This document shows, in pieces, positions 2 to 50,173 of a DNA stretch of 51,142 nt. Numbering within the stretch: the stretch's first letter is position 1; each line of letters opens with the position of its first letter. Source of the DNA: an uncultured Mucilaginibacter sp. GTDB lineage: Bacteria > Bacteroidota > Bacteroidia > Sphingobacteriales > Sphingobacteriaceae. The notes below the pieces were generated by a model. The model was not told the origin of the DNA. It searched no databases and saw only the letters and a program-made list of their open reading frames with translations. The stretch covers positions 2,789-53,930 of the forward strand of contig NZ_CALMAT010000033.1 of the NCBI RefSeq assembly GCF_937859865.1, written 5' to 3'. Made by a program: the position numbers and the translations under genes.

Positions 2-673
2 GCCGAGGACCTGTTAAAATACGTGATAAAAGAAGCATTGGCCAAAAACGCCGACGATCTGGAGTTTTTAGCGCAGCGTTTGGCCGAAGAAGAAAAGCAA
101 AAACCGCAGCAGGAACGCCAGGAATTGGGCTTGCTGGAAAAACTGAACTTTTGTTTGGAAAATGATTTTGAACGTTTGACTTACACCGAAGCGATTGAGA
201 TTTTAAAAGAATCAACCCCGAACAAAAAGAAGAAATTTACTTATTTGATTGAAGGCTGGGGCGCGGACCTGCAATCGGAACACGAACGTTTTTTGGTAGA
301 AAAGCATTTTAAAAAACCGGTTATTTTAACGGATTATCCGGCGGCAATCAAAGCATTTTACATGCGCCAAAACGAACCGGATGTCGAAGGACGAAAAACA
401 GTTAGGGCGATGGATATTTTATTTCCGGGCATTGGCGAAATGGTTGGCGGAAGCCAGCGGGAAGAACGTTTGGACAAATTAACACAGCGCATGGACGAAA
501 TGAACATCTCAAAAGAAGAATTGGATTGGTATTTGGATACACGCCGTTTTGGTGCCTGCGAACATGCCGGTTTTGGTTTAGGTTTCGAGCGTTTGGTGCT
601 TTTTGTAACCGGTATGACAAACATTCGTGATGTAATTCCTTTTCCAAGGTTTCCAAAAAACGCGGAGTTTTAG
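2..673 (+). CDS. asnS: Asparaginyl-tRNA synthetase, 3' part (5' end outside window)
   Basis: C-terminal 223 residues of a class II asparaginyl-tRNA synthetase, which charges tRNA-Asn with asparagine in the cytoplasm. The frame is open to the window edge, so the gene is cut by the window and not broken. Visible signatures are the [10 protein letters not shown] segment of the catalytic core, [18 protein letters not shown] (class II motif 3 with its arginine) and the family's C-terminal [11 protein letters not shown]. The stop is TAG at 671-673. The codons at 23-38 carry the 12-base core of the dispersed motif described below (read as VIKEAL). Identification is firm because the motif 3 region is nearly invariant; AspS would lack this ending. 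Confidence 0.96.
22..39 (+). repeat. Dispersed-motif core inside asnS
   Basis: GTGATAAAAGAAGCATT matches the right half of intergenic copies such as 10705-10729 over 16-17 bases. It is read as V-I-K-E-A-L within asnS. The AT-rich left part of the motif is not preserved, so it is a core-only match. Confidence 0.5.
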
Positions 674-709
674 GCGAGGTGAAAGGTTGAGGGTAGAAAA
701 AGCGGTAGA

Positions 710-1228
710 ATGAATCCAGAAATCAGCATTCGAAGAATAGAACCGGAAGAAGCGGCGCACTTCGCTAAGTTTAGCTCCGAGTTGTTTGCTGAAACTTTTG
801 CTGAATTTAACGATCCGCAGGATATGGAAACTTATTTGACGGAAGCTTTCAACCTAAAAAAAATCGAGGAAGAATTAAGCACTTCGAACATATACTGTTT
901 TTATGCCATTAAAAACAGTATGCCGGTTGGTTGTATCAAAGTGATTATTGCTGATGCTTCTTTTACCGGCATAAAATTGGTAGAAATTTCGCGTTTGTAT
1001 GTTTCAAAAGCATATCACAGTCAAAAAATTGGCGCGGCTTTAATGGCTTTTGCTGTTGATTTCGCCGTAAAAAACCAGGCTCAAAAATTGTGGCTGGGCG
1101 TTTGGGAACACAACCAAAAAGCCATTGATTTTTATTTAAAATGGGGATTTGCAAAAACCGGTGCCCATGATTTTAAGTTGGGAAACGATGTGCAGCAAGA
1201 CTGGCTGATGGAGAAAACTTTGAGTTGA
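710..1228 (+). CDS. GNAT family N-acetyltransferase
   Basis: A 172-residue GCN5-related acetyltransferase; the substrate cannot be read from sequence. The strand-4/P-loop region EISRLYVSKAYHSQKIGAAL (about residues 92-111) gives the acetyl-CoA pyrophosphate-binding QKIGAA. The second half (LWLGVWEHNQKAIDFYLKWGF, about 127-147) is the classic GNAT motif B, with Trp/Asn and the Y-x-K-x-GF ending. It starts with ATG 37 bp after asnS, so it may be co-transcribed, and it is followed closely by a convergent gene. Unusually, two copies of the dispersed DNA motif lie within the reading frame (892-921 and 954-978), encoding residues 61-70 and 82-90. The protein still aligns to the family pattern without an obvious insertion. 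Confidence 0.9.
   Translation: MNPEISIRRIEPEEAAHFAKFSSELFAETFAEFNDPQDMETYLTEAFNLKKIEEELSTSNIYCFYAIKNSMPVGCIKVIIADASFTGIKLVEISRLYVSKAYHSQKIGAALMAFAVDFAVKNQAQKLWLGVWEHNQKAIDFYLKWGFAKTGAHDFKLGNDVQQDWLMEKTLS
892..921. repeat. Palindromic ACAGTAT-subtype motif inside GNAT gene
   Basis: Perfect 12-bp inverted repeat, ATACTGTTTTTA and TAAAAACAGTAT, around a six-base centre TGCCAT. It matches the intergenic hairpin at 28945-28974 at 28 of 30 bases, differing only in two centre bases. It is translated as IYCFYAIKNS. Confidence 0.85.
954..978 (-). repeat. GAAGCAT-subtype motif inside GNAT gene, antisense
   Basis: The reverse complement is identical at all 25 positions to the intergenic copy at 2353-2377. 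In the gene it lies antisense and is read as DASFTGIKL. It is a complete motif, AT-rich left part included. Confidence 0.88.
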
Positions 1229-1232
1229 AAAA

Positions 1233-48826: not shown

Positions 48827-48864
48827 GAGCGGCTGGCAGAAATAAATTTAAACCAGCTCGATAC

Positions 48865-50109
48865 TTATTTTTCGGCCAACAACTGCTGGATCAAAGTTTC
48901 AAATTCGTGCGTAAATTCGGTATAATAATCTCCGGTTCCCGGGCCGCTAAAACCGGTATGGATTTTTCGCACATCACCTTTTTTATCAATGATAATGGTG
49001 GTTGGAAAAGCCACAAAATTGGCCAATGCCGGTAAACTTTTGGCGGGTTCGCCTTTATTGTTGGTATAACCGGTAACCAGCAAATCATAAGGGATATTGA
49101 ACCGGTTTTTTAACTGCTCCAGGTTTTTTCTGGAAGTTGCAAAATCAGTGGTACGCTCATAAGCCAGACCTAAAACATCTACTCCTTTTGGATGGTATTT
49201 TTTGTAGAAGTTGACCATGTAAGCCGTTTCGTCCATGCAATTTGGGCACCACGAACCCAATATTTGTAAAATAACCACCTTGTTTTTAAATTGATCAGCA
49301 GATAGAGAAACCGGCTTTTTATCTAAATCAGGAAAAGTAAAATCAACCTTTTTGTAACCGGGTTTTAAAACGGTGAGCGAATACGCATCAGGCAATTTGG
49401 CGTTTGCATCTTTTACGGCACTCCACAACTGTACGGAAGAAGCGCCAGAATAAAACTTTCCGTTGGTGATGGTTTTATCGTTGCTGATCTTCCCCATAAA
49501 TAAAAAAGCATGCCCGCCATCAAAGCACGACAAATACAATTCATCGCCCGAAACCGTGCCTTGCAAAAAGCGGTAATCGCCGGTGGTGGTTAAAAAAGTC
49601 CCGGTAATGTCGTTTCCGTTTTGCTTAAATTCGCCAACGGTTACGTCTTTGTTTTGCAAATCTTCATCGGTAAAAGTAGCAGACCAACGGCCGGAAATAT
49701 CAAATTTTGCTTTTTCGGGAGCAGCAAAAAAACGCCAGGAAACATCCGCTTGCGCCGAGAACGGGATCAGCACATCGCGATTGCCTAAATGCCGAACCCA
49801 GTTTCCGGTCAGCGTATTTCCATTTAAAGCTGTACGGATTTCACTATCGAACAAAGGCATTTTGATTAACATTGAATCGCCTTTTAAACTGATATTATTC
49901 ACTTTAAAATGTTCTTTGCCGTTGATGATCGTCATCAGCTTTTTGCCGGCGCTGTCTTTCAACTCAAAATTAAACGGGATGTATTGGCCGGAAGTATTTT
50001 TGAGTTTAGCCAGCCAAATACCGTTTTTTACCGTTGGAATAGGGTTGAACGAACTTAGAAAAATGGCTAAGCAGCCAATAATTGAAGTATAAAATATTTT
50101 GATTTTCAT
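48865..50109 (-). CDS. TlpA-like thioredoxin-fold protein, exported
   Basis: A 414-residue periplasmic redox protein. The N-terminal hydrophobic segment MKIKIFYTSIIGCLAIFLSSFNPIP is a signal peptide or anchor. Residues 30-260 are a beta-rich domain of unknown type (repeats such as GRWSATFTDEDLQNKDVTVG and GTVSGDELYLSCFDGGHAF), unlike the DUF4369 of the other TlpA protein here. The AhpC/TSA domain (about 270-414) has NKVVILQILGSWCPNCMDETAYMVNFY (CPNC) and FVAFPTTIIIDKKGDVRKIHTGFSGPGTG (cis-Pro). It is probably a thiol-disulfide oxidoreductase. A motif copy (50149-50173) lies about 40 bp upstream of the start. Confidence 0.9.
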   Translation of the reverse strand: MKIKIFYTSIIGCLAIFLSSFNPIPTVKNGIWLAKLKNTSGQYIPFNFELKDSAGKKLMTIINGKEHFKVNNISLKGDSMLIKMPLFDSEIRTALNGNTLTGNWVRHLGNRDVLIPFSAQADVSWRFFAAPEKAKFDISGRWSATFTDEDLQNKDVTVGEFKQNGNDITGTFLTTTGDYRFLQGTVSGDELYLSCFDGGHAFLFMGKISNDKTITNGKFYSGASSVQLWSAVKDANAKLPDAYSLTVLKPGYKKVDFTFPDLDKKPVSLSADQFKNKVVILQILGSWCPNCMDETAYMVNFYKKYHPKGVDVLGLAYERTTDFATSRKNLEQLKNRFNIPYDLLVTGYTNNKGEPAKSLPALANFVAFPTTIIIDKKGDVRKIHTGFSGPGTGDYYTEFTHEFETLIQQLLAEK

Positions 50110-50148
50110 GTTGAAATTTCTGATTGGTTTAACATAAAAGAATCCAGC

Positions 50149-50173
50149 AATGCTTCTTTTATGCCCTAAAAAA
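50149..50173 (-). repeat. Single dispersed motif, GAAGCAT subtype
   Basis: AATGCTTCTTTTA, TGCCC, TAAAAAA, with a partial inverted neighbour CATAAAAGAAT at 50133-50143. It ends 1 bp before the rfaE2 stop. Confidence 0.8.

Follow-up and report, generated by a model that had tools for sequence, protein, structure and literature searches.

DNA-uptake signals are known from the Neisseriaceae and the Pasteurellaceae, both of which use pili. The uptake signal sequence (USS) of the latter has an accompanying AT-rich segment and occurs on both strands and within genes, and the receptor of the DNA uptake sequence (DUS) of the former is ComP of the type IV pilus. The USS of Haemophilus and other Pasteurellaceae is reported to be present in at least 1000 copies of a short core and is used in terminator hairpins (PMC1852404), and the DUS of Neisseria is lineage-specific, conserved, absent from recently acquired genes and arranged in terminator pairs (PMC2397512, PMC1852404), many new copies facing unrelated or gapped sequence (PMC2397512). 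Two reports on Riemerella describe a protein with domain DUF5689 that is essential for transformation, a transformation machinery that was termed unique and a proposed model without a pilus (PMC8459023), as well as a preference of R. columbina for its own DNA, for which the candidate words listed are AT-rich and simple (PMC7965970). We found no report of a comparable uptake tag for Bacteroidota in the searchable open-licence literature, where absence is no proof. In this study, we analyzed a short, highly repeated motif in a stretch of 51,142 nucleotides (hereafter the window) from contig NZ_CALMAT010000033.1 of an uncultured Mucilaginibacter sp. (Bacteroidota; Sphingobacteriaceae). A first-pass annotation of the window had interpreted this motif as similar to a DNA uptake sequence; our results support that interpretation, and sequence-specific uptake itself is what we infer from them.

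Abundance and structure of the motif

Analysis of the source genome (G000; 3,976,085 bases in 177 contigs) revealed 2114 copies of a first core, TAAAAGAAGCAT (1059 forward and 1055 reverse), versus 1 + 1 for the reversed word, and 856 copies of a second core, TAAAAACAGYAT (440 + 416), versus 0 + 0 for its reversed word. Both spellings combined gave approximately 3000 copies, which were found in genes and spacers and were spread over the whole genome. The Markov expectation for TAAAAGAAGCAT was approximately 6 for an order-3 and 39 for an order-5 model (scaled up from a 364-kb sample that comprised the window and 20 further stretches, the order-5 value being inflated by the motif itself), which corresponds to a genome-wide excess of approximately 360-fold and 54-fold, respectively. 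All 45 of the top 12-mers listed for the sample were the motif or overlapped it. When up to one mismatch was allowed, the window contained 45 matches of TAAAAGAAGCAT (0.94 expected) and 12 of TAAAAACAGTAT (1.06 expected), and in neither case did any of 100 shuffles contain as many.

With a strict motif set (TAAAAGAAG[CT]AT and TAAAAACAG[CT]AT), 45 copies were identified on both strands of the window, including 31 intergenic copies, 1 at a gene edge and 13 within open reading frames (ORFs). The over-representation described in the first-pass annotation, with more than 30 intergenic and about 15 genic copies on both strands, was thus reproduced, and the counts were neither close to random expectation nor confined to this region. 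With regard to individual genes, the two copies reported for purD and the three for recG were recovered, secA and infB had weaker, mismatch-bearing copies and no strict one, and the MACPF gene was free of internal copies as had been stated (no strict copy in ORF 37606-39054). On the other hand, the two copies reported for GNAT should be three, and only one of the two assigned to the epimerase was strict, with weaker ones besides. According to a Pfam search, the coding copies lie in ORFs for a class II (D, K, N) tRNA synthetase (plausibly asnS), GNAT, GARS (purD), NAD-epimerase, recG and an ABC exporter. In the 364-kb sample, approximately 82% of which was coding according to a simple gene caller that missed some genes, 309 copies were found: 206 intergenic, 81 coding (55 sense and 26 antisense) and 22 at gene edges.

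Alignment of the copies yielded an extended consensus of approximately caCcAATTTTTAn(4)GgTAAAAGAAGCAT, which houses both cores; this extended motif is about 30 bp long and consists of an AT-tract, a short spacer and a 12-bp core with two spellings. Counts of single changes indicated that core positions 2-5, 8, 9 and 11 were nearly invariant, that C and T swapped freely at position 10 (196 to 45), and that positions 6-7 were either GA (GA subtype) or AC (AC subtype), with few intermediates. The AT-tract was present beside 76% of 78 coding copies versus 19.5% of 1302 other genic TAAAA words; therefore, coding copies have the extended motif too. The corresponding values were 96% for 168 other non-coding or edge copies and 95% for 60 copies in divergent pairs. 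The highly iterated palindrome HIP1, a palindromic octamer, was rejected as a parallel because TAAAAGAAGCAT is not palindromic.

Occurrence in related genomes

A search for TAAAAGAAGCAT in 60 genomes, the source genome included, gave 965 + 982 copies in one sister species (G001), 520 + 598 in the other (G002) and 0 to 9 in the 57 others; the totals for the first and second core were 1947 + 714 in G001 and 1118 + 786 in G002. With a degenerate core, TAAAANMAGYAT, we examined 399 genomes of the family (own included); three genomes from a single GTDB genus had 3780, 3334 and 2737 copies, and none of the remaining 396 exceeded 146 (table read by eye). Among 80 recG loci surveyed, those of Mucilaginibacter arboris HMF7410 and of a lichen metagenome-assembled genome (L051 and L052) had 13 and 16 strict copies, respectively, two others had one strict copy each and 76 had none. 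In viral contigs, at least 120 stretches matched, with one match each among the 80 listed.

Dialects of the motif elsewhere in the family were also considered. A 9-mer survey of the 80 recG loci returned the motif only in L051 and L052, and TGTGCAGAT, a candidate dialect in L097 and L099 (Mucilaginibacter sp. FT3.2 and M. flavus), turned out to be clustered repeats. Another word, GAGACACAT, had 8 copies in 22 kb of a Mucilaginibacter dorajii locus (L092), where almost none were expected. In one further genus of the family (g18), TAAAANMAGYAT was two to four times as frequent as its reversed control in G019, G063, G076, G106, G145 and G155, and the excess was smaller in other genomes of g18; all of them were far short of hyper-abundance.

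Origin and maintenance of copies within genes

Stepwise substitutions were seen at coding copies in alignments of orthologues, the most detailed of which included 18 recG orthologues picked from 80 (two of them from members of the motif-bearing genus) and 23 purD outgroups. The three recG copies and the two purD copies were present in all three members of the genus, and they altered residues (IKDIQ to VKEAS in recG, and an RHxIPT-like stretch to KNSIPT in purD). We then considered all sites with at least three outgroup alignments, which gave 20 site rows for 13 distinct positions, as the sisters share sites. Gap-free alignment at the coding copy was found in 502 of 546 cases, which are not independent since the outgroup loci overlap partly, and 16 of the 20 rows were mostly or wholly gap-free. 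The nine coding copies of the window that have outgroup orthologues appear to have arisen mostly by substitution, often with a change of residues, and not as insertions. In this respect the motif differs from the DUS.

Copies were also maintained between species. The DNA identity between the window and the sister species was 0.81, and 17 of 21 and 16 of 20 aligned window copies were still motif in the two sisters when C/T and GA/AC spellings were allowed. Letter-identical copies, the fair comparison with random 12-mers (11%), amounted to 13 of 21 and 10 of 20, with 24 and 25 unalignable copies left out. At position 28963, the copies in the window and in G002 were of the AC subtype, and that in G001 was of the GA subtype; therefore, the two core spellings appear to be equivalent.

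Two examples of accessory DNA were considered. The first was an acyltransferase/glycosyltransferase island in the window (Table 1), whose strict copies all lay in divergent pairs. Among the matches listed in a search of 13200-21900 with 40 candidates scored per genome, one ABC gene and the repeat units were shared with the sisters and with two relatives. The second was a G002 locus with lantibiotic-dehydratase and C39-peptidase transporter genes (L319; G002:C1:75001-95000), which had no strict copy, versus 10 to 20 in each of the other 17 stretches of its contig. These two examples may fit the absence from recently acquired genes that is reported for the DUS of Neisseria (PMC2397512).

A possible role in DNA uptake

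By analogy with the known systems, we consider it likely that the motif serves as a DNA-uptake signal in Bacteroidota, of the same kind as USS and DUS. In favour of this reading are its hyper-abundance in one genus only, the mostly substitutional origin of the coding copies tested, the AT-tract beside them, the conservation of copies between species, the lack of association with GC skew, the even spacing and the stems of convergent pairs, together with the presence of comEC, dprA and a protein with repeated HHH matches; the preference of R. columbina for its own DNA is a precedent within the phylum. It resembles the USS in its short core with at least 1000 copies, AT-rich segment, presence on both strands and within genes, and hairpins after genes, and differs in that its sequence is unrelated, the AT segment lies upstream of the core, two interchangeable core spellings occur per genome, no match to PF00437 was found in the source genome and the phylum is Bacteroidota. 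Like the DUS, it is lineage-specific, conserved and paired in hairpins; however, its sequence is different, and a ComP/type IV pilus receptor is unlikely given the PF00437 result. Riemerella shares the phylum as well as ComEC, DprA and HHH proteins; it differs in that only AT-rich simple words are candidate uptake sequences there, and in that DUF5689 was not found in the genus studied here.

In the mechanism we propose, a genus-specific surface or periplasmic receptor would bind the motif on outside DNA, and tagged DNA of the cell's own kind would be preferentially imported and recombined via ComEC, DprA and presumably RecA. Through such a bias, alleles with the motif would displace those without it, a form of molecular drive that would account for the altered residues in purD and recG. 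A unit similar to a miniature inverted-repeat transposable element (MITE) may have gained two outward copies. Import would probably proceed without type IV pili because a PilB/PilT-type ATPase was not found, and DNA would thus probably cross the outer membrane in a pilus-free manner, as proposed for Riemerella. We lean slightly towards the fuller scenario that a pilus-free uptake system evolved in one genus of Sphingobacteriaceae, with a novel receptor that takes two spellings and a MITE-like unit whose two captured tags maybe spread via transformation.

Several observations weigh against an uptake function. First, the competence genes present in the motif-bearing genus (comEC, dprA and that for an HHH-repeat protein) are non-discriminating, as they were found in all genomes searched, motif-less relatives included (comEC 7/7, dprA 6/6 and HHH 6/6). 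Second, PF00437, the ATPase family of pili and type II systems, had no match in the source genome at E 0.001, and G001 and G002 each had a single match below the cut-off (7 of 26 genomes searched were above it); the machinery on which both known uptake-signal systems depend thus seems to be missing. Third, DUF5689 gave no hit in the genus, and to our knowledge the genus has not been reported to be competent. Fourth, 4 of the 20 site rows were mostly gapped: three represent one epimerase site in three species, with one codon difference from most outgroups, and the fourth is a G001 site in a frame that we take to be lipB, where a loop is 8 codons, the size of the motif, longer than in outgroups and an insertion is possible. 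Outgroup coverage was too low for the alignment test at 4 of the 13 coding copies of the window (27, 892, 910 and 954). Finally, the two sisters lacked 4 of the 21 and 4 of the 20 copies that could be aligned.

If the motif does serve uptake, it would represent a third independent origin of uptake signals, in another phylum and apparently without pilus ATPases, and would make it possible to test by comparison why tags of this kind evolve (drive versus selection for recombination with own kind). It would also offer a route to an outer-membrane DNA receptor of Bacteroidota, with M. arboris, a cultured environmental species, as test organism, and the motif could aid genetic work in this group.

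With respect to HHH proteins, a strong HHH_3 domain was observed in a frame of approximately 770 residues in the relatives G015, G005 and G003 (L344-L346), and the best HHH_3 matches in G000-G002 were weaker and lay in frames of approximately 310 residues.

Strand, spacing and a possible chromosomal-protein site

The best surviving alternative, which we nevertheless regard as unlikely, is a genome-wide site for a chromosomal protein (a nucleoid organiser or a signal for segregation or recombination, for example Chi or the FtsK orienting polar sequences, KOPS) that is maintained by selection acting on the cell. The dispersal and conservation of the copies would agree with it, and so would their spacing: after copies less than 150 bp apart had been merged, gaps were more even than chance (0 of 500 coding-matched and 26 of 500 uniform placements were as even). 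The TTTTA-spacer-TAAAA layout would suit a dimeric DNA-binding protein. Uneven strand counts point in the same direction, both in the G002 draft (520 to 598 for the first core and 353 to 433 for the second), whose contigs are arbitrarily oriented and in which the direction of genes may play a part, and locally in 80 kb of G001 (47 to 27).

However, Chi and KOPS have a strong leading-strand bias, whereas 18 stretches of a 1.1-Mb contig of G002 contained 121 forward and 122 reverse copies (p 1.0), and no association with GC skew was found either in these stretches (111 to 132, p 0.20) or for the 309 sites of the source genome (166 to 143, p 0.21). A Chi/KOPS-like signal was ruled out by these tests, despite the uneven counts in G002 and G001. 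The limitation of such abundance to one genus among 399 genomes of the family also argues against a chromosomal-protein site. Furthermore, a 12-bp core with an AT-tract at such excess, altering residues of purD and recG, exceeds what chromosomal sites of this kind are known to do. A dif-like site, to which the 12-6-12 layout of double copies bears some likeness, was set aside because its spacer was not conserved and thousands of recombining sites within genes would be implausible.

A MITE-like palindromic unit

A dispersed palindromic mobile unit like the Rickettsia palindromic elements (RPEs) had been named as a rival by the first-pass annotation. We considered mobile repeats of the RPE, repetitive extragenic palindromic (REP) or MITE kind that would insert into both spacers and genes. 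As an account of the motif as a whole we consider such a repeat quite improbable, yet it is true of some intergenic copies, which belong to a palindromic unit bounded by terminal repeats as in these elements. In the sample, we identified 31 divergent pairs of copies with spacings of 61-95 bp (80-84 bp in 22 pairs), two of the 31 looking like one element split over two contig ends. Arms like GAGCCTGTTTAAATTT and its complement were visible by eye in approximately two thirds of the pairs. A 14-base terminus, GCCTGTTTAAATTT, was found exactly 78 times in the source genome, 42 times in G001, 8 times in G002, 5 times in G015, a motif-less relative, and at most twice in each of the 37 further genomes examined. 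Besides the units of the window (Table 1), the source genome thus has dozens more. In addition, one spacer with a lone copy in the window contained two units in G001.

Nevertheless, only 60 of 306 sampled copies with full flanks lay in divergent pairs, and the palindromic unit accounts for a minority of copies. The gap-free codon alignments described above refute a mobile repeat as a general explanation, which holds for the paired units, and stepwise substitutions also speak against it; tested coding copies were mostly not insertions, in which they differ from RPE, REP and MITE elements. For most coding copies, these alignments ruled out an origin from an insertion element, the one G001 site being still compatible with it. 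We read the palindromic unit as a MITE that acquired two outward motif copies, an order of events that we infer. In G015, one locus (L335; G015:C68:161700-162500) contained a unit of approximately 170 bp with the same kind of terminal repeat and no motif inside.

At two contig ends (L332 and L333) of G015, which belongs to a related genus, the terminal repeat was observed beside a transposase-looking frame. The contig-end peptide looks like the C-terminus of a transposase, and a Pfam search of this 43-residue peptide gave no match.

Spacer copies and predicted hairpins

Among spacers of at least 60 bp, copies were present in 28 of 31 convergent, 70 of 120 co-directional and 22 of 45 divergent ones. 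In convergent pairs of copies within 60 bp of each other, 11 of 13 formed a predicted stem, with strand ends of the UUCUUUUA type, and the copies in convergent spacers were probably co-opted as terminators. That the motif is a regulatory or terminator element alone, favoured at the ends of genes and found within them only as a by-product, would fit the convergent spacers and their stems but is hardly credible, as 81 of 309 copies were genic and used five of six phase/strand classes in the sample (in line with the earlier remark that coding copies are not tied to one reading), most aligned coding copies were kept between species, and co-directional and divergent spacers had copies as well.

Features of the window

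The positions of the copies, units and island discussed above are given in Table 1.

Table 1. Motif copies, paired units and other features in the window (fractions give outgroup alignments that were gap-free at the copy)
Position	Strand	Feature	Remarks
27..38	+	GA-subtype copy in class II tRNA synthetase ORF	Kept in both sister species
892..921		Two overlapping opposite AC copies in GNAT ORF, 12-bp arms, 6-bp spacer	+ copy lost in G002
954..965	-	Motif copy in GNAT ORF	Kept in both sisters
2349..2377	+	Extended motif TACCAATTTTATGCCGGTAAAAGAAGCAT at gene edge	
3965..4007		Convergent one-mismatch pair just downstream of secA stop	secA at 4059-7367, minus strand
8394..8405	+	AC coding copy in purD	27/27
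8562..8573	+	AC coding copy in purD	27/27; mostly RH-type stretch changed to KN
9507..9569		Downstream of purD, two one-mismatch copies in direct orientation plus an exact inverted copy	
12230..12241	+	AC coding copy in epimerase ORF	0/10; one codon length difference versus most outgroups
13134..22071		Acyltransferase/glycosyltransferase island	Synteny broken versus both sisters; six strict copies, all in three divergent pairs
15746..15839		MITE-like unit with two outward-facing copies, distance 82 bp	Flanked by GCCTGTTTAAA-type arms
18150..18242		MITE-like unit with two outward-facing copies, distance 81 bp	
21911..22002		Divergent pair, distance 80 bp	No terminal arms visible
27671..27682	-	AC coding copy in recG	78/78
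28263..28274	-	GA coding copy in recG	78/78
28761..28772	-	GA coding copy in recG	78/78; KDIQ-like changed to KEAS
28945..28974		Upstream of recG, two AC copies overlapping in opposite orientation	GA subtype at 28963 in G001
33696..33707	-	Antisense copy within ABC exporter ORF	31/31; not kept in G002, unaligned in G001
34225..34314	34225 -, 34303 +	Two coding copies in ABC exporter ORF	22/22 and 20/23
36076..36167		MITE-like unit, copies 80 bp apart	
37466..37559		MITE-like unit, copies 82 bp apart	Long hairpin predicted
41242..41335		MITE-like unit, copies 82 bp apart	Long hairpin predicted
42588..42672		MITE-like unit, copies 73 bp apart	

The MACPF-domain ORF of the window also contained DUF5648 and was located amid glycosyltransferase genes.

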